Positions 1-56,510 of a stretch of 64,000 nucleotides of DNA are shown here, piece after piece. The notes under the pieces are model-generated. The model was not told where the DNA came from. It searched no databases and saw only the letters and a program-made list of their open reading frames with translations. Numbering within the stretch: the first letter of the stretch is position 1; each line of letters begins with the position of its first letter. This DNA comes from Methanoregulaceae archaeon PtaB.Bin056 (lineage in GTDB: Archaea; Halobacteriota; Methanomicrobia; Methanomicrobiales; Methanospirillaceae). A program made the position numbers and the translations under genes. Location: assembly GCA_002067095.1 (NCBI GenBank), contig MVQD01000030.1:1-64000 (forward strand). The letters run 5' to 3'.

Positions 1-538
1 CTTCGACGGCTCAATGGTTGCGGGAGGCCAGGCCTACTATGTCGAGGTCGATGACAGGCTGTCTTCCTACCCGGTGGCGACGGCCGCGCAGATGATGGAT
101 ACCGCGGTTGCAAGGGCAGCTGCCGATGCCTACAACCAGAAGGCTGCACCAGGGACCCGTGCGATGGTCCTCTCCTCAAACCTCCTGACCCCCATCGACA
201 CCGTCCCTGCGCTCAAACATTACCGCCTGGTGCATGAATCTCCCACCAATGTCATTCCGGCAGGTGCAGGTTGGGATATCAAGTACGTGAAGGTATTCGA
301 GTATGTCCCGGGCGCACGGATCCAGGGCACGGGGGTCATTGCCCTTGACCTGGTGTCCAACACGGGGAGGACGTTTACCTATAAGCAGGCCAGCACCGAT
401 GGGGAATTCATCGTCCCCTACTCGACCACAGGCTCTCCCTACGAGGTGAAGGCAGCAGGCAGGTACCGCATCGAGGGCACCGGCCGGGAGATCGACGTCC
501 CGGAAACTGCGGTCATGCAGGGGCTGCAGGTCGGGTGA
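1..538 (+). CDS. aglB: Oligosaccharyltransferase AglB (STT3 family), C-terminal part
   Basis: This is the last 179 codons of a gene that begins upstream of the window; the frame is open from base 2. The residues match the C-terminal, extracytoplasmic part of archaeal AglB, notably the stretch YVKVFEYVPGARIQGTG followed by a small beta-rich domain. AglB transfers lipid-linked glycans to Asn residues of secreted and surface proteins. The catalytic WWDYG motif and the membrane segments must lie outside the window, so the call rests on the C-terminal domain only. The stop codon abuts the start of the next gene with no gap, so the two are probably cotranscribed. Confidence 0.8.
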   Translation, partial: FDGSMVAGGQAYYVEVDDRLSSYPVATAAQMMDTAVARAAADAYNQKAAPGTRAMVLSSNLLTPIDTVPALKHYRLVHESPTNVIPAGAGWDIKYVKVFEYVPGARIQGTGVIALDLVSNTGRTFTYKQASTDGEFIVPYSTTGSPYEVKAAGRYRIEGTGREIDVPETAVMQGLQVG

Positions 539-2767: not shown

Positions 2768-3061
2768 ATGCAGGCTGATGAAGTAGAGGTAGGGATGCGG
2801 GTTCGCTATCCGAGGACAGGGACCACGGGCCGGGTCGTTGCCCTGGAGAACGGGATGGGCGGATTATTCGCGGAACTGGACTCGACCCACCTGCGTTACC
2901 GGGTCGACCAGCTGGTCCCTGCAGGTGTCGCGGGTGAACGTGCCAGGACCACAAAAGAAGACCTGATGGACCGGCTGAAAAAGGAACGGGAATTCCTCTC
3001 AGCGACGGGGTTCCAGGACGCGATATCCCACACGGACCAGAGTTGCGAGGGCGGGGGCTAG
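2768..3061 (+). CDS. DUF2098 family protein
   Basis: 97-residue protein matching the methanogen DUF2098 family: VGMRVRYPRTGTTGRVVALE is followed by an ELDSTHLRYRVDQLV segment, which suggests a small SH3-like beta barrel. The C-terminal third is charged and probably helical or disordered. The molecular role of the family is not known. ATG at 2768 is preferred over an in-frame GTG at 2762 because the TATA element at 2736-2747 places transcription start near 2768. Its stop codon TAG shares the tetranucleotide CTAG with the stop of the facing nikR gene. Confidence 0.75.
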   Translation: MQADEVEVGMRVRYPRTGTTGRVVALENGMGGLFAELDSTHLRYRVDQLVPAGVAGERARTTKEDLMDRLKKEREFLSATGFQDAISHTDQSCEGGG

Positions 3062-3480
3062 TCGGTTATCGGGATGGTGGTGAGTTTCACCGACTCTACC
3101 CCTTTCTGGGACATGAGGCGCTCAGCCAGGGTCTTGAGTTCTGATCCATCGCCCCTGACCAGCACCACTTCCAGGCACTTGTCGTGGGTCACGTGGGAGT
3201 GGAGCGATGCCTGGATGATGCCCATGAACTCGTGCTGGATATCGGTGAGCGTCGCCAGGAGGTTTCTCTGTTCGTGGTCGTAGATCATGGTTATCACTCC
3301 CTGGCGCTCCCCTTTCACGTCCGACATCCATTTATAATAGGTGATGTAGTTGCGTATGGCATCCCGGATGCCCTCGGAACGGGATGAATACCCGCGGTAA
3401 TTGATGATCTCGTCGAATTTATCGAGGAGGTTCTTCGGGAGCGAGATTCCAATCCTCGAGAGTTCAGTATCTATGGTCAT
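3058..3480 (-). CDS. nikR: Nickel-responsive regulator NikR
   Basis: 140-residue ribbon-helix-helix repressor with a C-terminal ACT-like nickel domain. The N-terminal RIGISLPKNLLDKFDEII forms the DNA-binding fold. The metal site is visible as QHEF followed by LHSHVTHDKCLEV, which carries the His-x-His and Cys ligands of NikR. It should repress nickel uptake when nickel is plentiful, relevant here to the Frh hydrogenase and methyl-CoM reductase. ATG at 3480 is chosen over GTG at 3498 because GGAGAGG sits about 7 bases ahead of it. No nickel transporter gene lies in this window. Confidence 0.93.
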   Translation of the reverse strand: MTIDTELSRIGISLPKNLLDKFDEIINYRGYSSRSEGIRDAIRNYITYYKWMSDVKGERQGVITMIYDHEQRNLLATLTDIQHEFMGIIQASLHSHVTHDKCLEVVLVRGDGSELKTLAERLMSQKGVESVKLTTIPITD

Positions 3481-3507
3481 GGTTGTGATCCTCTCCACAT
3501 GGGATCT

Positions 3508-3526
3508 CTTATATATAAGTACTTAA
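3508..3526 (-). promoter_or_regulatory. Promoter of nikR with overlapping palindromes
   Basis: CTTATATATAAG (3508-3519) is a perfect 12-base palindrome and a strong TATA box, about 28 bases before the nikR start. It overlaps a second palindrome, TAAGTACTTA (about 3516-3525). The arrangement could let NikR or another dimeric repressor bind over the promoter. No classic enterobacterial NikR box is seen. Confidence 0.55.
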
Positions 3527-3648
3527 AACTTCGGAAAATCACCCCTTTCCAGTGCTACTTAGTAATACTGGCTGGGGCATATTTCCTGTGCAAGTGCCGG
3601 CATTCGGTACTTTTATCTGGTTTTCGCTCCGAGTGTGTTGAAGAGAGC

Positions 3649-4305
3649 ATGTCAGCCCCTTCGTACCACGCCCATTCGGAGAAAGGCCTGCGGGAGAGGA
3701 ACGAGGACGCCTGCATGGCGAGGGAGGTGGGCGGCATACATCTCTTTGCCGTTGCGGAAGGAATGGGCGGATCCCCGGAAGGACCCAGTGCGGCCGAGGT
3801 GGCCATCAGCGCCCTCTGCAGCGGCGAAAGCGTATATGCCGGTTCGCTGGCAGACATGGCGGAATCCTTCCTGGCCCGTGCAGACGATGCGCTCTTCCAC
3901 TCGCACGAGTCAAACCCCGTGGCTGATCCCCCTGCGGTGGCCATGACGCTTGCAATCGTGGGACCAGGCGGTGAGTGCCTGGTGAGCAGCCCTGGCCAGC
4001 GCAAGGTCTTTTTCATGCCGGTCCCACCAGGAGAGAACAAAGGACCGGATCCCAACGATATTCAGGACTCACCCGTTCTCCATGATCCCGGTGCCGGGAT
4101 GCACGAGGCAGTACTTCCTCCCGGGTTTCTGATCCTCTGCTCGGACGGCATCAGCGAGTTCGTTACAGACGACCGGATCTCCGAGATCGTGAGGGAGAGA
4201 GGCGATGACCTGGAGGGTGCCTGCCGCAAGCTGGTGTACGAAGCGTTCCAGAATGGGAGCAATGACAACCTTACCATGGTGCTGGTCAGGCAACCTGACC
4301 GGTGA
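3649..4305 (+). CDS. PP2C-like serine/threonine protein phosphatase
   Basis: 218 residues with the PP2C motif series: EKGLRERNEDAC at the N terminus, VAEGMGG, LILCSDGISEFV and NGSNDNLTMVLVR at the C terminus. The usual DG[MH]GG motif reads EGMGG, replacing the bridging metal Asp with Glu, and the usual GDSR motif region reads SPGQRKVFF. The first and last metal Asp positions remain. The domain is also short for the family. It may be a weak or altered phosphatase, or a phospho-protein sensor. ATG at 3649 follows a T-rich TATA-like element at 3611-3617. No kinase is adjacent. Confidence 0.75.
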   Translation: MSAPSYHAHSEKGLRERNEDACMAREVGGIHLFAVAEGMGGSPEGPSAAEVAISALCSGESVYAGSLADMAESFLARADDALFHSHESNPVADPPAVAMTLAIVGPGGECLVSSPGQRKVFFMPVPPGENKGPDPNDIQDSPVLHDPGAGMHEAVLPPGFLILCSDGISEFVTDDRISEIVRERGDDLEGACRKLVYEAFQNGSNDNLTMVLVRQPDR

Positions 4306-4379
4306 GGCCGCTCTTCACCTGAGTGGAGATCCGGCCATGAACGATTATTCTCTCTCTTTTACCTGCCGCTGGGGGAATC

Positions 4380-5270
4380 GTGGATAGCATCACCCACGGG
4401 CTCGTTGCGATGCTGGCGTTCCACGCGACGTTTCCAGGCTTGCTGGTACTCTTTGCGGTGCTGGGGGCAGTTCTCCCCGATTCAGATGTCTTTCTGTCGC
4501 TCCTCTCTGACCGTGACCCGCGCCTCTTTGTCTTCACCCATGGGGGATTCACCCACAGTATTCCCGGGTCCGCAGCCATTGCCTTCGGTGTCGCGGCTGG
4601 GTTCCAGGCATGGCTGTGCCTGGCAGGCCAGGGGCATGTGGGGGGTACGTTCCTGGTCTTGGCCTGGGCGCTCGCATGGGCGGGTGCGCTCTCGCACATT
4701 GCCCTCGATGCGCTCGCGTTTCCCGGCATCCCCCTCCTGTATCCCGCCAGCACCAGGAAGTATTCTGCCGGTATATTCCCGGGCCCGAGCCTTGTGCTGT
4801 TTGGAACGAGCCTGGGCTTCCTGCTGATGCACTTCGCCGGATACGCCGGCACCGGCGCACTCTATGCCTACATGGCTTTTATCGGGGTGTTCGTCGCGGC
4901 GCATGTCATTCTGAAGGCCTTTGTTGCGGCACGTCATCCGGGACTCACCATCCCCACCTTCAACCCCATGAAGTGGCTGGTTGTCAGGGAGGTGGAGGAC
5001 TCATACGAGGTATGCTCGGCCGGACTTTCACGGGAGTGCACGAGCATCGCGGTATTTCCAAGGTACGATGGAGTCAGGCCGGAGTACCTCGACCGGCATT
5101 CCAATGACCCGGAGATGGCAAGGGTTACTTATCACTCGTATATCACCGTGGCTGCCCGAAGAGACGGGTCGATCGTCGTGCGTGACCCTCTGCGGGATTC
5201 GGGCATACTCCGCTATCCTCCATACTACCGGAGCGTGCGCCTCCCGGAAGAGGAAAGGGGCACCCCCTGA
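4380..5270 (+). CDS. Membrane protein of the YdjM / metal-dependent hydrolase family
   Basis: 296 residues starting with GTG. The N-terminal half resembles the YdjM/DUF457 family: MDSITHGLVAML, VLPDSDVF, FTHGGFTHS and ALSHIALDALAFPG give the conserved His and Asp residues along several membrane helices. Family members are called inner-membrane metal-dependent hydrolases, but few have been tested. After about residue 190 there is a soluble tail of about 100 residues (FNPMKWLVVREVEDSYEV and on), which looks like an added cytoplasmic domain of unknown role. It stands alone between the phosphatase and the aIF2-gamma operon. Confidence 0.75.
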   Translation: MDSITHGLVAMLAFHATFPGLLVLFAVLGAVLPDSDVFLSLLSDRDPRLFVFTHGGFTHSIPGSAAIAFGVAAGFQAWLCLAGQGHVGGTFLVLAWALAWAGALSHIALDALAFPGIPLLYPASTRKYSAGIFPGPSLVLFGTSLGFLLMHFAGYAGTGALYAYMAFIGVFVAAHVILKAFVAARHPGLTIPTFNPMKWLVVREVEDSYEVCSAGLSRECTSIAVFPRYDGVRPEYLDRHSNDPEMARVTYHSYITVAARRDGSIVVRDPLRDSGILRYPPYYRSVRLPEEERGTP

Positions 5271-5389
5271 TCCCGTCTTCTTTTGGGCACATCCCGGCAG
5301 GAGCTGCGCCCCGGCCACTCTGCAGACCGGAGAAAAACCACACCTTCGCGAAAAAATCCCTGCTCGCAGGGTATTAAGTAGGATTGTTC

Positions 5390-5397
5390 TTATATAG
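5390..5397 (+). promoter_or_regulatory. TATA box of the aIF2-gamma operon
   Basis: TTATATAG is centred about 25 bases before the TTG start at 5419. This predicts a leaderless or nearly leaderless message and supports the TTG start. Confidence 0.6.
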
Positions 5398-5418
5398 ATC
5401 AGCGAGGTTTGATCGGCA

Positions 5419-6654
5419 TTGCATGACGTTACAATTCCCAGCGTGAATATCGGCGTAGTCGGGCACGTGGACCATGGAAAGACCACCCTGGTGTATGGCC
5501 TCACCGAGTCCTGGACAGACCGGCACAGCGAGGAGATCAAGCGGGGAATCTCCATCCGCCTGGGATATGCAGATGCCACATTCTACCGGTGCGAACGCTG
5601 TGAAGGCGCAGAAGCCTTCGGCACCAGGCCGGAGTGCCCCGTATGCGGCGGCAAGGCGGTACCGTTCCGGTCGGTCTCCTTCGTGGATGCACCGGGCCAC
5701 GAGACGCTGATGGCCACGATGCTGTCGGGGTCTGCATTGATGGACGGGGCGATGCTCGTGATCGCGGCGAACGAGACCTGTCCACAGCCCCAGACGAAAG
5801 AGCACCTGATGGCGCTCGAACTGGTGGGGATAAAGAAGATCGTGATCGTCCAGAACAAGATCGACGTGGTCCCCCAGAAGGAGGCAGTCAAGCACTACGA
5901 GCAGATCAAGAGCTTCGTGAAGGGGACGATCGCCGAGAACGCACCGATCATACCGGTCTCTGCACAGAAGGTGATCAACATGGGGGCGCTCGTCGTGGCC
6001 CTCGACCAGACCATCCCCATCCCGGACCGTGATCCCGGTGCAGAACCCATGATGCTCCTCGCACGGTCCTTCGACATCAACAAGCCCGGCTCAAGCTGGC
6101 GCGACCTCAAGGGCGGGGTGATAGGTGGCTCGCTGATACGGGGAGTGTTAAAAGAGGGGGAGGATATCGAGATAAGGCCGGGGAGGCAGGTCCAGGCCGA
6201 GAACAGGATTCGCTGGGAGCCGATCGAGACCAAGATCACCACCATCAATGCCGGTTCGAAGAAGGTGGTAGAAGCAACGCCTGGCGGGCTGCTTGGGATC
6301 GGGACGAAGCTTGACCCCGCGTTGACAAAGAGCGACGCCCTCGCAGGTCAGGTTGCCGGCCACCCCGGAAAGTTGCCGCCCGTTTGGGAGAAGGCGCGGT
6401 TCAGGGTCACGCTGATGGAGCGGGTGGTGGGCGTGAGCAGCGAGATGCAGATCGAGCCCCTCAAGCACCACGAACCTCTCATGCTCTCGGTGGGAACGGC
6501 GGTCACCGTCGGAGTCGTGATCAACACCAAGAAGGACATAGTGGAGGTCACCCTCAAGCGGCCGGTCTGCGCGGAGATCGGGGCCCGTATTGCCATCAGC
6601 CGCCAGCTGGGAGGAAGATGGCGTCTGATCGGGATGGGCGTGCTGACCGAGTGA
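5419..6654 (+). CDS. eif2g: Translation initiation factor aIF2, gamma subunit
   Basis: 411-residue GTPase that brings initiator Met-tRNA to the small ribosomal subunit as part of the aIF2 alpha-beta-gamma trimer. The G motifs are clear: VGHVDHGKTT (P-loop), VDAPGHE (G3) and QNKIDVV (G4). A zinc knuckle CERCEG...CPVCGG at about residues 55-75 is typical of the archaeal gamma subunit. Two beta-barrel domains follow. The start is taken as TTG because the family N terminus lies just ahead of PSVNIGVVGH and because of the TATA box 25 bases upstream. The 3' end overlaps the PIN gene by 4 bases (GTGA). Confidence 0.96.
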   Translation: MHDVTIPSVNIGVVGHVDHGKTTLVYGLTESWTDRHSEEIKRGISIRLGYADATFYRCERCEGAEAFGTRPECPVCGGKAVPFRSVSFVDAPGHETLMATMLSGSALMDGAMLVIAANETCPQPQTKEHLMALELVGIKKIVIVQNKIDVVPQKEAVKHYEQIKSFVKGTIAENAPIIPVSAQKVINMGALVVALDQTIPIPDRDPGAEPMMLLARSFDINKPGSSWRDLKGGVIGGSLIRGVLKEGEDIEIRPGRQVQAENRIRWEPIETKITTINAGSKKVVEATPGGLLGIGTKLDPALTKSDALAGQVAGHPGKLPPVWEKARFRVTLMERVVGVSSEMQIEPLKHHEPLMLSVGTAVTVGVVINTKKDIVEVTLKRPVCAEIGARIAISRQLGGRWRLIGMGVLTE

Positions 6655-52395: not shown

Positions 52396-52445
52396 TTTCA
52401 TTCTGTATGCATGTGTCTTGATAAGAATCATGCGGTTTTTTAATT
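52396..52445 (+). repeat. Dispersed intergenic repeat, copy 2
   Basis: Aligns without gaps to 43301-43350, with 39 of 50 bases identical. It is preceded by two hairpins, AAATCGC-ACCC-GCGATTT (52317-52334) and TGATGCG-GAA-CGCATCA (52372-52388). The terminal T6 run is followed by AATTG and may serve as TATA box for the gene at 52495. Confidence 0.6.
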
Positions 52446-52494
52446 GAATGCATTTCAGCAGATTAATACCTCCCTTCCCTCCCACCTTCCTGGC

Positions 52495-54189
52495 GTGATC
52501 CGGACCTCCCTTCTCCTGATCCTCCTCCTGGTTGGCCCGGTGTCAGGGGTGATGCTCGTGGAGTTCTGCCCTGATCCGTACCTCCCGAACGACCGGGACG
52601 AGTACCTCTGCCTCGAAGGATGGGGCCCGGCAGAGGGCATCACGGTGACAGACGGCGAAGGCGGGTTCCGGTTCCCTCCCGGAACCGTCCTTTCGGGCCG
52701 GACGGTCATTGCCATGGACGCGGAAGCATACCAGAGCAGCCACGGCCACTATCCCGATTTCGAATGGGACGGGCACTCTCCCGCGGTTCCCGACGTGGTC
52801 CGGAACGGACGGTTCCAGCTCTCGAACGCAGGTGACGAGATCCTGGTCTATTCCGGGGGAGTATGCCTCCAGAAGGTGGAATGGCCGGGAATGGTCTCGC
52901 CGCGGCAGGGGCAGGTGCACTTCTTTTCCGACGGCAGGTGGGACGAAAGGGTGCTGATGCTCGGCCAGTCGCAATTTTCACCGGAGACTTTTCAGGATGC
53001 CGCGGGCATCGCATTCGTCTCTCCGGACTGTTCGAGGGAGGTCTTCTCAGCCCTGGTCATGGGGGCAAAACGAGAGATCCTGGTGAGCATCTACGAGTTC
53101 ACGAGCCCCGTGCTCGCGGGTTTTCTCGAGGATGCGCATGCGCGGGGGGTGGCAGTCGAAATCCTCATTGAGGGAGGGCCTGTGGGGGGTATCCCCAAAG
53201 AAGAGCACGAGGTGGTGTCACACCTGCTCCGGTCCGGAATCACGGTCAGGAGCATGCAGGGAACGGAACTGGTGCACAGCCCCTACCGGTTCCTCCACTC
53301 CAAGTACATGGTGATTGACAGGAGCAGGGTGCTGGTCACGAGCGAGAACTTCAAGGAGAACGGGTTTCCCGAGAGGGGGATGAGGGGGAACAGGGGGTGG
53401 GGTGTTGCGATCACGCACCCTGGACTTGCGGAATACATGAGGTCCGTGTACACCCACGATGCAGGGGGAGGGTGGACGGTAGGGGCGGTGCCCGGAGCCG
53501 GTGACCCGGAAGTCTCATCGTCTCGTCAATATCCCGCGGTCTTTTCGCCGTACGTGTTTGAAGGAGCGACTGTTACTCCCGTCATCTCTCCCGACACAAG
53601 CAACCTGCTGCACCCCTTGATCCTCGGTGCAGAGAGAAGCGTTGACATAGAGATGGCCTACATCACCAACGAGACGGCGCAGTCCCTGAATCCTTTCCTT
53701 GAAGACGCGGTCAACGTCTCCCGCCGGGGTATTCCGGTGAGGGTAATCCTCGACTCCTACTACTACAACACCGACAAAGAAGCGGACAACGACGAACTCG
53801 TCGACCTGATCAACGGGATGGCGGCAGCCGAAGGACTGCCGCTTGAAGCCCGGTGCGCATACCTTGGACCAGAAGGCGTCGAGAAGATCCACAACAAGGG
53901 GGTCATCGTTGACCGTGAACAGGTCCTTGTCAGCAGCATCAACTGGAATATGAACTCGCCGACCTTCAACCGGGAGGCGGGAGTGATCATCCACCACCCG
54001 GGTGTCGGAGAATATTACTCCCTCGTTTTCGAGAGCGACTGGGAAATGGCAGGGCAGAAAGAGACGGTGAGAGGCCCCGACCGCATGAAGATTGCTGCCG
54101 CCTGCGTGGTTATTGCTGCCCTCCTCCTCTTCTTCTGGTACCGGAGAAGGGGTGGAGGACGCCGGGCGACCCCCCGGAATCGTGGCTGA
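52495..54189 (+). CDS. Secreted twin-HKD phospholipase-D-like protein with lamin-tail-like domain
   Basis: 564 residues. A signal sequence (SLLLILLLVGPVSG) is followed by a beta-sandwich of lamin-tail (LTD) type (VMLVEFCPDPYLPNDRDEYL to about residue 150). Two PLD catalytic motifs follow: HSKYMVID (about residue 270) and HNKGVIVDREQVLVSSINWN (about 465), so the two-fold active site is complete. A C-terminal membrane helix (IAAACVVIAALLLFFWY) and an Arg-rich tail anchor it facing outward. Such enzymes cut phosphodiesters, either DNA or lipids. The GTG at 52495 opens the signal sequence; a TTG at 52444 is less likely. Confidence 0.85.
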   Translation: MIRTSLLLILLLVGPVSGVMLVEFCPDPYLPNDRDEYLCLEGWGPAEGITVTDGEGGFRFPPGTVLSGRTVIAMDAEAYQSSHGHYPDFEWDGHSPAVPDVVRNGRFQLSNAGDEILVYSGGVCLQKVEWPGMVSPRQGQVHFFSDGRWDERVLMLGQSQFSPETFQDAAGIAFVSPDCSREVFSALVMGAKREILVSIYEFTSPVLAGFLEDAHARGVAVEILIEGGPVGGIPKEEHEVVSHLLRSGITVRSMQGTELVHSPYRFLHSKYMVIDRSRVLVTSENFKENGFPERGMRGNRGWGVAITHPGLAEYMRSVYTHDAGGGWTVGAVPGAGDPEVSSSRQYPAVFSPYVFEGATVTPVISPDTSNLLHPLILGAERSVDIEMAYITNETAQSLNPFLEDAVNVSRRGIPVRVILDSYYYNTDKEADNDELVDLINGMAAAEGLPLEARCAYLGPEGVEKIHNKGVIVDREQVLVSSINWNMNSPTFNREAGVIIHHPGVGEYYSLVFESDWEMAGQKETVRGPDRMKIAAACVVIAALLLFFWYRRRGGGRRATPRNRG

Positions 54190-54517
54190 GTCCTCCACCC
54201 TCCCGGGTTTCCGGGTCCCTCATTGCGCACTGGCAGATGTCGCAGAGGGTAATGCCATCCTCTCTGCCTGCGACTGCCAGCGCCCAGCGGTCGATGAGGG
54301 CGTTCATGTCCGGCGAGAGCTCAAACGACGCGTCACCGCGTTTCCTGCTCAGGTACTGCGAGACCGCAGCCCTCGTGATTCCGAGCCTCTTTGCCGCCTC
54401 GCTCTGGCTGAGCCCCTGCTGCTGGATGAGCCGGAATACCATCTCGGCCCTCATTGCCGGGAGAAACCTGCGGACCATGGTGTCGCACACCATGATGTCG
54501 CAGTCTCTTCCTCTCAT
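54110..54517 (-). CDS. HTH transcription regulator with C-terminal Cys pair
   Basis: 135 residues. VRRFLPAMRAEMVFRLIQQQ precedes a helix-turn-helix SQSEAAKRLGITRAAVSQYL followed by SRKRGD, the pattern of the archaeal XRE-like family (COG2522). Near residue 90 there is CDICQCAMRD, which could bind metal or sense redox state. The last 27 codons are antisense to the end of the PLD gene. Its ATG overlaps the stop of the next upstream gene, a winged helix, by ATGA, so the two regulators are made together. Confidence 0.8.
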   Translation of the reverse strand: MRGRDCDIMVCDTMVRRFLPAMRAEMVFRLIQQQGLSQSEAAKRLGITRAAVSQYLSRKRGDASFELSPDMNALIDRWALAVAGREDGITLCDICQCAMRDPETREGGGLSHDSGGSPGVLHPFSGTRRRGGGQQ

Positions 54518-54741
54518 GCCGTCACCGCGGCGGGCCGGTTCTGGTAGATGATCTGGCGCGCGTCCTTGAAGTTGAACTTCTCGATGATCAGCTGTTGTTC
54601 TTTCAGTCTCTTCAATGCGTATCTCACCGTGCGTGGTGCAAGACGTGTCTTTTTCACCAGGTCCTTATGGGTCATTGCCCCGCCTTCATCAAGTATGTGA
54701 AGGACGGTGAGAGATGAGGGTGGAAGGTTCATCTCAGGCAT
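54514..54741 (-). CDS. Small MarR-like winged-helix regulator
   Basis: 75 residues. LPPSSLTVLHILDEGGAMTH, then KDLVKKTRLAPRTVRYALKR and LKEQQLIIEKFNF form one winged helix with no added domain. It is at the start of a two-gene leftward run with the HTH gene at 54110-54517. It is divergent from the OB-fold gene at 54813 across about 70 bases, so it may control that operon as well as itself. Confidence 0.8.
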   Translation of the reverse strand: MPEMNLPPSSLTVLHILDEGGAMTHKDLVKKTRLAPRTVRYALKRLKEQQLIIEKFNFKDARQIIYQNRPAAVTA

Positions 54742-54812
54742 AAAATAATGTTAACGCTGTTAACATATCAACCTGTCGGTGCTTATCATGTAGAGGAAGA
54801 TATCACTCCCTT

Positions 54813-55193
54813 GTGATACTGGTAAGGCAGGAGAAGATTGCAGTCCTCGTACTTGTCCTGGTCATCGTGGTCGTCCTCACCGCTTCTTTTTTGATCGAAT
54901 CGGCGGGCAAAGGCCTCTTCTCGCGCCCCTATGGTCCCGAAAGCGCGGAAGGGGAACTCGTGCATCACCAGGGCACAGTCGAGGAGAGCACATTGACCGC
55001 GAGTGGCGGCCACCAGGTCCTGGTGGTCTCGGGTGTCCGTGTCTTTATCCCCTCCGATTCAGTGAGGAAAGGGTGGCCCCGCCCAGGCCAGGGGGTCTCA
55101 TTGTACGGCACGGTGCAGACATACCGGGGAGAGAGGGAGATCCTTGTCCGTTCGGCCGATGATATCTTCCCCCTCGCCGCACCTGCCGAATGA
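54813..55193 (+). CDS. Membrane-anchored OB-fold-like protein
   Basis: 126 residues. One N-terminal membrane helix (IAVLVLVLVIVVVLTASFLI) is followed by a small beta-rich domain: GTVEESTLTASGGHQVLVV, FIPSDSV, GQGVSLYGTVQTYRGEREIL and IFP. This strand order, with a YGTVQTYRGEREI strand, is like OB-fold nucleic-acid-binding domains (tRNA_anti type), here placed outside the membrane. It starts GTG at 54813. It heads a three-gene rightward run with the two genes that follow. Confidence 0.65.
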   Translation: MILVRQEKIAVLVLVLVIVVVLTASFLIESAGKGLFSRPYGPESAEGELVHHQGTVEESTLTASGGHQVLVVSGVRVFIPSDSVRKGWPRPGQGVSLYGTVQTYRGEREILVRSADDIFPLAAPAE

Positions 55194-55242
55194 GGAAGGC
55201 AGCACCGGATTCGGCCAATCTTAATATGCCATCGGTGAATAC

Positions 55243-55917
55243 GTGGAGAGTGTGAACCCTGTCACCGTAGAAAGAGAAGGGGGATCCAGCGATCCGAGCG
55301 GAGAAGCACTTCCCGGCGCGACTCACCAGATCTGGATACTCGGCCTTCTCGGGGCGATCTGCATCGCACTCGAGATAGGCGTGCACCTCTTCCTTCGCAC
55401 CGCGATCGGCTATACCCACATCTTTTACGTGCTCCTGGTCCTTGCGGGGGTCTGGTACTACCAGAAAGCGCTCGTCGTTGCGGCGGCGCTCGTCGCAGCC
55501 ACGTTCCTCACCAGTGGTATCGTCGGTGATTTCACCTGGGCAACCCTCCTTCGGGCGGCAATGTTCCTGGTGGTGACCTGGATCGTGGCGAAGATATCGG
55601 AAGAGAGGGACCGGGCAAAGGCAGAGATCCTGGACCAGAAGGCGGCCATCGAAGAGAAGCACTCTGCGCTGGTCGGGTACCTTGCGGAGGTGGCACTCCG
55701 GATGAAGAACCCGATCCACCTCCTGCGGGACAATATGGCTGCCATACGCTTGCAGCTCGAAAGCGAGGACCCAGACCTCGAGGCGGTGAAGATGGACCTC
55801 TCAGTGCAGATCACCCATGCAGATCAGATAATGGCCAACTTCAGGGAGTTGAACCAGGCGATTGTCGAAGAGCGTGACGAGATACCTCTTGCCTACCGGG
55901 ATTTCCTGACCCGCTGA
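55243..55917 (+). CDS. Four-helix membrane protein with a kinase-like dimerisation helix lacking His
   Basis: 224 residues. Four membrane helices span about 25-125, a MASE-like sensor layout. Then comes a coiled coil (KISEERDRAKAEILDQKAAI) and a helical pair GYLAEVALRMKNPIHLLRDN and IMANFRELNQAIVEERDEIP that follows the HisKA dimerisation fold, but where kinases have HELRNPL this reads ALRMKNPIH. No ATPase domain follows. It seems to be a signalling membrane protein that has kept only the dimerisation part of a kinase. A GTG at 55252 is the other possible start. The DUF835-like gene follows by 14 bases. Confidence 0.7.
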   Translation: MESVNPVTVEREGGSSDPSGEALPGATHQIWILGLLGAICIALEIGVHLFLRTAIGYTHIFYVLLVLAGVWYYQKALVVAAALVAATFLTSGIVGDFTWATLLRAAMFLVVTWIVAKISEERDRAKAEILDQKAAIEEKHSALVGYLAEVALRMKNPIHLLRDNMAAIRLQLESEDPDLEAVKMDLSVQITHADQIMANFRELNQAIVEERDEIPLAYRDFLTR

Positions 55918-55931
55918 AGAGGTGGATGGGC

Positions 55932-56510
55932 ATGTCGATCGATCTCACTGGAATCGGGCAGAACCGGCTGTTCCTGGTCTTGTCCTCGGCAGAGAGGCTG
56001 AAACAGAACAACCTCTCCATCATCCGTACCCTGACCGGCCAGGGGTACCGGGTCGTCGTGATCACCTCAAACCACCCTTCAGCCGTGTTGAAGAAGCTCT
56101 ACGCCGCAGAAGGGATCGAGATGGGGCGTGTCTCGTTCATCGACACCATCACCAAGTATGCGATGGGACGGGTCCCGGAGGGACAGGAGGACTGCCGGTT
56201 CATCAGCAGCCCTTCGAACCTTACTGACCTCGGCATCGCGATCACGGAGGTGCTGAATACCCTCTCGGGTGAGAAGGCCTGCCTGCTCTTCGACTCCATC
56301 AGCACCCTCCTGATCTACATCCCCTCCACGAACATCTCAAAGTTCATCCACTTCATCACGAGTAAGCTCAGGCTTGTCGACACATCCGGGATATTCCTTG
56401 CCGTCGAGAAGGGACTCGACCCGCTCCTCCTCACCCAGCTGACCACCTACGTCGATGGGACAATCGACATGGACCTGTCCCCCCAGGCAGAAGAAGGACA
56501 GAAGGGCTGA
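55932..56510 (+). CDS. DUF835-like RecA-fold protein without Walker A
   Basis: 192 residues. NRLFLVLSSAERLKQNNLSI, then QGYRVVVITSNHPSAVLKKL and VSFIDTITKYAMG, CLLFDSISTLLIYIPSTNIS and TSGIFLAVEKGLDP follow the DUF835/KaiC-related family of euryarchaea. The P-loop is absent: the first strand ends LSSAERL, so ATP hydrolysis is unlikely, while the Walker B-like LLFDSIS is kept. ATG at 55932 has GAGGTGG about 6 bases ahead. In the same family many proteins follow a membrane sensor, as here. It probably interacts with the protein encoded just upstream. Confidence 0.7.
   Translation: MSIDLTGIGQNRLFLVLSSAERLKQNNLSIIRTLTGQGYRVVVITSNHPSAVLKKLYAAEGIEMGRVSFIDTITKYAMGRVPEGQEDCRFISSPSNLTDLGIAITEVLNTLSGEKACLLFDSISTLLIYIPSTNISKFIHFITSKLRLVDTSGIFLAVEKGLDPLLLTQLTTYVDGTIDMDLSPQAEEGQKG

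Follow-up and report, generated by a model that had tools for sequence, protein, structure and literature searches.

Archaeal signalling is thought to mix parts of bacterial two-component systems with a native network based on KaiC. On the two-component side, nonenzymatic histidine kinase-like proteins carry a HisKA domain with its conserved histidine and no HATPase domain, and are found mainly in Archaeoglobi and Methanomicrobia (Galperin et al., 2018, PMC5847659). On the KaiC side, inactivated KaiC-like domains (iKaiC) have been proposed as hubs of archaeal signalling (Makarova et al., 2017, as cited in Galperin et al., 2018).

Here we describe two adjacent genes of Methanoregulaceae archaeon PtaB.Bin056, gene 2 and gene 3, which probably constitute a Methanomicrobiales-specific cassette, in which a pseudo-DHp domain signals to a pseudo-KaiC protein by conformation and with no phosphotransfer. 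The sensors that carry this domain (hereafter CT) resemble the nonenzymatic kinase-like proteins in their N-terminal sensors of the PAS/GAF type, their C-terminal HisKA-like dimerisation domain and their lack of HATPase; unlike these proteins, CT is devoid of the histidine in 124 of 124 copies, escapes the HisKA model and is followed by the gene of a KaiC-like partner (compare PMC5847659). As far as the iKaiC proposal is presented in the citing paper, gene 3 shares with it a KaiC fold devoid of a functional P-loop and a link to signalling domains, but it stands alone and is paired with a dedicated pseudo-DHp sensor. The canonical two-component system HK853-RR468 is likewise a gene pair of a sensor with a DHp hairpin and a co-evolving output protein, whereas the cassette has neither the histidine nor a HATPase domain, and a RecA-fold protein takes the place of the receiver as its output. 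The family to which gene 3 belongs, DUF7504 (PF24336), has no described function, and the gene 3 subfamily within it is order-specific and sensor-linked. No mention of DUF7504 was found in the literature searched, nor of the sensor-partner pairing, which may stand in the KaiC-hub paper of 2017. Inactivated KaiC signalling and kinase-less histidine kinase-like proteins have thus already been described, and a histidine-less, partner-linked family is apparently undescribed.

Layout of the locus

The window, a stretch of 64,000 nucleotides (contig MVQD01000030.1, positions 1 to 64,000), stems from a genome of 2.24 Mb, whose closest named relatives at this locus are MAGs of Methanolinea sp., within the order Methanomicrobiales. 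An earlier sequence-only reading had described three rightward open reading frames here, all of which are confirmed:

54813-55193, plus strand: gene 1, membrane-anchored OB-like protein with one membrane helix, a neighbour and no dedicated partner
55243-55917, plus strand: gene 2, membrane sensor of 224 aa with a C-terminal pseudo-DHp domain (open reading frame, AF2 model)
55315-55596, plus strand: four transmembrane helices of gene 2, residues 25-118 (hydrophobic segments)
55651-55914, plus strand: putative pseudo-DHp domain (CT) of gene 2, residues 137-224 (order-wide family)
55696-55698, plus strand: codon of L152 of gene 2, at the position of the phospho-acceptor histidine (alignment column never His)
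55879-55914, plus strand: conserved C-terminal tail of gene 2, EIPLAYRDFLTR, residues 213-224, outside the hairpin (conservation, AF2 model)
55932-56510, plus strand: gene 3, partner with a predicted P-loop-less KaiC/RecA fold, DUF7504 (profile match, fold comparison)
55968-55997, plus strand: place of the lost P-loop of gene 3, LFLVLSSAER (no GxxxxGK[ST] in 104 homologues)
56292-56297, plus strand: Walker-B-like Asp-Ser of gene 3, D123 and S124 (D123 in 103/104, S124 in 95/104)

The open reading frame of gene 3 already opens at 55926; the start is nonetheless likely to be 55932, because the spacing of the putative ribosome-binding site (AGGTGG, about 7 nt upstream of 55932) and the starts of many homologues at the 55932 Met both fit.

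Upstream of the locus, 52444-54189 encodes an exported phospholipase-D-like protein of two domains, with a membrane helix at its C-terminus; the gene is kept in this position in related genomes. Between a divergent winged-helix gene (54514-54741, minus strand) and gene 1 lies the palindrome TGTTAACGCTGTTAACA (54749-54765), a likely operator, the GTTAAC half-sites of which are invariant in seven members of the genus.

Gene 1 is a neighbour of the pair

All three genes had been taken as one membrane module, the first protein of which might sense nucleic acid or a ligand on the outer side. The family of gene 1 occurs in 207 of the 219 genomes of Methanomicrobiales, nearly always as a single copy and also in genomes that lack CT, and the three-gene module is rejected for this reason; nothing was found in favour of such an outer sensor. 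Gene 1 adjoins the pair in its own genus and in one further genus; a single genome from another family also has it next to the pair, and in a third family one anion-transporter-like gene stands between them. By its distribution it is an order-wide core gene, and a neighbour rather than a subunit of the pair. Even the OB fold is weakly supported, PF01336 matching 5 of 12 family members with a best E of 5e-4. One genus member without the pair (L367 in genome G022, 2945-3790) has kept gene 1, and downstream of it 33 codons of gene 3 are left as a deletion scar.

A sensor without the histidine and without the ATPase

The product of gene 2 consists of two separable parts, a portion with four transmembrane helices (4TM) and the last ~90 residues, each of which recurs in other proteins in whole-protein searches. 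The four membrane helices that had been noted are matched by four hydrophobic segments. In the AF2 model (mean pLDDT 81), membrane helix 4 continues unbroken as a long helix (99-173), after which come a hairpin helix (179-210) and, in the tail, one more short helix. In other genomes, proteins related to the 4TM part have RHDI, with the histidine present, together with HATPase, i.e. they are true histidine kinases, and in the genome studied here a sensor of this 4TM type is fused to HEAT repeats (L034 on contig C26, 2787-4028); the sensor part is therefore common to true kinases and to histidine-less output.

Aligned over the loci, CT has the consensus aLiaYisEaalRlKnPvElv.dNl ... L..Q..N..QI..N..ELN.aI.e...eIPeaYR.FL. 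The H-box of gene 2, AEVALRMKNPIH, holds L152 at the position of the histidine and P157 at +5, as the sequence-only reading had seen for the missing residue. The check on homologues bears this out: amongst 124 distinct copies of CT the column contains Met in 52 and Leu in 51 (103/124 together), and His in none. The Glu, Arg and Pro columns beside it are near-invariant (E13 is found in 120 copies, R17 in 121, and P21 in every one of the 124), and a further column, 56, is occupied by Asn in 70 and by His in 34 of the 124. The 13 best-scoring HisKA domains of the same genome, which belong to genuine kinases, have all kept the histidine; this genome contains 14 HisKA and 42 HATPase matches above the cut-off.

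The absence of an ATPase domain after the helix pair of gene 2 is confirmed as well, and it extends to the family, given that none of 100 CT proteins has a HATPase or HisKA match at an E of 0.001. These proteins differ in their inputs, with PAS in 76, REC in 8 and GAF in 6 of the 100, and 66 of them have no membrane helix. CT is always C-terminal, with a tail of 0-3 aa after the domain in 100 of 103 proteins.

Relationship of CT to DHp domains

At the level of sequence, the HisKA-like character that had been ascribed to the helix pair is weak. No CT member exceeds the curated cut-off of the HisKA model (PF00512), which matches 3 of 36 members with a best E of 0.026; in two genomes searched, none of the HisKA matches falls on a CT domain, and no convincing model for the domain was found in Pfam and NCBIfam. 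A profile-profile comparison with 32 genuine kinase HisKA domains places L152 under the histidine with a score of 20.2 (E 0.0019), as compared with 9.9 for the reversed profile and at most 18.4 for twenty heptad-block shuffles. Reversed and block-shuffled profiles served as controls, rotations being unfit where the aligned segment stays intact.

The predicted structure adds to this. DHp domains are the top matches of the CT model (5c93 and 4jau, both with Z 8.2, rmsd 3.6 and 3.1 over 78 and 82 residues), although helical hairpins easily give such middling Z values. HK853 is among the best matches, with residues 132..220 of the model on 240..321 (offset 108), which puts L152 on H260 if the alignment is ungapped, and the DivL-type pseudo-kinase 4q20 is also found among the matches. 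A DHp domain is a two-helix hairpin with a proline at +5, and CT has both in the AF2 hairpin and in P21, the proline lying five residues past the histidine position as in HExRTP; this is supportive and no proof. Proline spacing, profile comparison and structural comparison, each a weaker line of evidence, agree on the register, all of them putting L152 at the position of the histidine. A divergent DHp domain is the likely, though unproven, origin of CT, given that CsoR/FrmR repressors match it structurally almost as well and that helical hairpins reach such Z values.

A KaiC-like partner without a P-loop

The protein encoded by gene 3 matches DUF7504 (PF24336) with an E of 5.8e-13 and 50.1 bits, above the cut-off of 27. 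The label DUF835 that it had been given does not hold, its match to that family (E 0.069, 13.4 bits) being below the cut-off of 33.1. Among 31 aligned relatives, DUF7504 matches all 31 and KaiC 18. The KaiC fold and the missing P-loop stood up better: the AF2 model (pLDDT 89.5) matches PH0284 with Z 17.0 and KaiC with Z ~15, as well as PH0321, Elp456 and FlaH, and Walker A (GxxxxGK[ST]) occurs in 0 of 104 family members, of which 99 have kept His142. A sequence search of the PDB returned no relatives, KaiC being found through fold comparison only. As judged from sequence and predicted fold, gene 3 encodes a pseudo-KaiC, with a KaiC/RecA fold and no P-loop.

More distant relatives occur in Archaeoglobi-like loci (L187-L191), where they directly follow an active-type KaiC gene (PF06745, E 1.7e-29 in L187). 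In the genome studied here, a DUF7504 gene adjoins a KaiC-like gene (G000, C106:263409-264385, L036). At another locus (L200, 2276-3558) the partner gene is preceded by that of a REC protein, the C-terminus of which resembles a degenerate CT domain.

The pair is kept across the order

A search for CT in 393 genomes of the phylum retrieved 46 genomes, all of Methanomicrobiales, with up to seven copies per genome, and two borderline matches elsewhere; in the same 393 genomes, strong matches to the partner are confined to this order and weaker relatives are spread more widely. The partner lies directly downstream on the same strand in 85 of 114 CT matches, with a median of 21 nt between the two matches. 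Conversely, in the related loci, which were gathered with an alignment of the partner protein, CT is directly upstream in 65 of 68 named partner loci; of the other three, one has the order swapped (L093), one is a fragment and one falls at a contig end. The swapped locus, from Methanoculleus sp. FWC-SCC1 (3254-5778), reads OB-anchor, partner, CT sensor, and its last two genes overlap by 4 nt. Across 97 distinct pairs, the median distance from the CT stop to the matched partner start is 14 nt. The check on gene order in other Methanomicrobiales therefore came out in favour of a kept linkage for genes 2 and 3.

The distances of CT and partner are also correlated (0.76 over 86 pairs, with a permutation maximum of 0.11). 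Among paralogues of the same genome the correlation is a weak signal of 0.35 (permutation fraction 0.018), and it suggests that CT-partner cassettes diverge as units. About one quarter of CT domains are orphans that have no adjacent partner gene; two of these, both small PAS-CT proteins, are found in the genome studied here and may share its one partner. No fusion of CT and partner in one protein was found, and no recurrent third gene as an output, the recurring neighbours reflecting a few conserved genomic sites.

Proposed mechanism and alternatives

The direct basis of the cassette reading is formed by sequences, absences, conservation, gene linkage and predicted folds; dimerisation, physical contact, direction of the signal, stimulus, ligand and target are what we infer. 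Input by the sensor (4TM here; PAS, GAF or REC elsewhere) would travel through an uninterrupted signalling helix into a dimeric hairpin of the DHp type, which has neither the phospho-acceptor histidine nor an acidic residue after it and would meet no ATPase to phosphorylate it. A stimulus could then shift the packing of the hairpin helices, and thereby alter a binding face or the C-terminal tail towards the co-translated partner; the tail EIPLAYRDFLTR is a possible partner-docking peptide. Being unable to bind ATP via a P-loop, the partner would give its output by binding other proteins, and may dock on active KaiC-type ATPases. Since its relatives outside the order directly follow KaiC genes, KaiC-type assemblies are the first candidates for a target.

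In an alternative scheme the KaiC-like protein itself belongs to assemblies built on KaiC-type ATPases, such as the archaellum, pili or further hubs, and all that the sensor does is anchor or sequester this protein at the membrane, with no graded signalling. What speaks for this is the Archaeoglobi-like gene order, together with the neighbouring DUF7504 and KaiC-like genes of the present genome. However, most of the sensors lack a membrane helix (66 of 100) and PAS, GAF or REC inputs are carried, so that regulation is favoured over plain anchoring, and we regard the scheme as unlikely. A shade less likely still, the pseudo-DHp proteins could be adaptors or inhibitors of genuine kinases, through mixed dimers or competition for response regulators, with a KaiC-like partner that merely stabilises them. 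DivL-type pseudo-kinases act through other kinases, and one of them is among the structural matches; the genome also holds many genuine kinases (the 14 HisKA and 42 HATPase matches), and the 4TM module is found on true kinases too. Yet the tightly linked gene encodes the KaiC-like protein, neither a kinase nor a response regulator, and kinase-dimer specificity would need conserved residues of the DHp core, from which CT has diverged too far for the HisKA model.

A disguised phosphorelay, with the phosphate on another residue such as the histidine of CT column 56 or His142 of the partner, appears very improbable. His142 is kept in 99 of 104 partners, but column 56 is more often Asn (70 of 124) than His (34), the sensors have no ATPase domain, and the partner has no P-loop and no receiver fold. 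We give even less credence to genes 2 and 3 as decaying remnants of a two-component system: both catalytic centres are lost and genome G022 keeps just the 33-codon remnant of gene 3, and yet the motif columns are invariant across the order, the frames are open in all main matches and a genome may hold up to seven copies.

Conformational signalling from pseudo-DHp to pseudo-KaiC is the best reading, in line with the idea, already voiced in the sequence-only reading, that the signal travels by contact and not by phosphotransfer, in view of 0 of 124 histidines, 0 of 100 ATPase domains and a kept pair; the contact itself is presumed. That the arrangement amounts to an order-wide two-component-like system made up of two pseudo-enzymes, where diverse sensors act through a histidine-less DHp hairpin on a dedicated P-loop-less KaiC by conformation alone, seems to us somewhat favoured. 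If true, the cassette would be a direct joint of the two-component and the KaiC networks, linking a DHp-type sensor devoid of kinase chemistry to a dead KaiC output. Its ~97 distinct pairs offer a testable set for phosphate-free transmission via a DHp hairpin, and the family puts a name to many proteins of methanogens which general libraries of protein families either know by PAS alone or miss.
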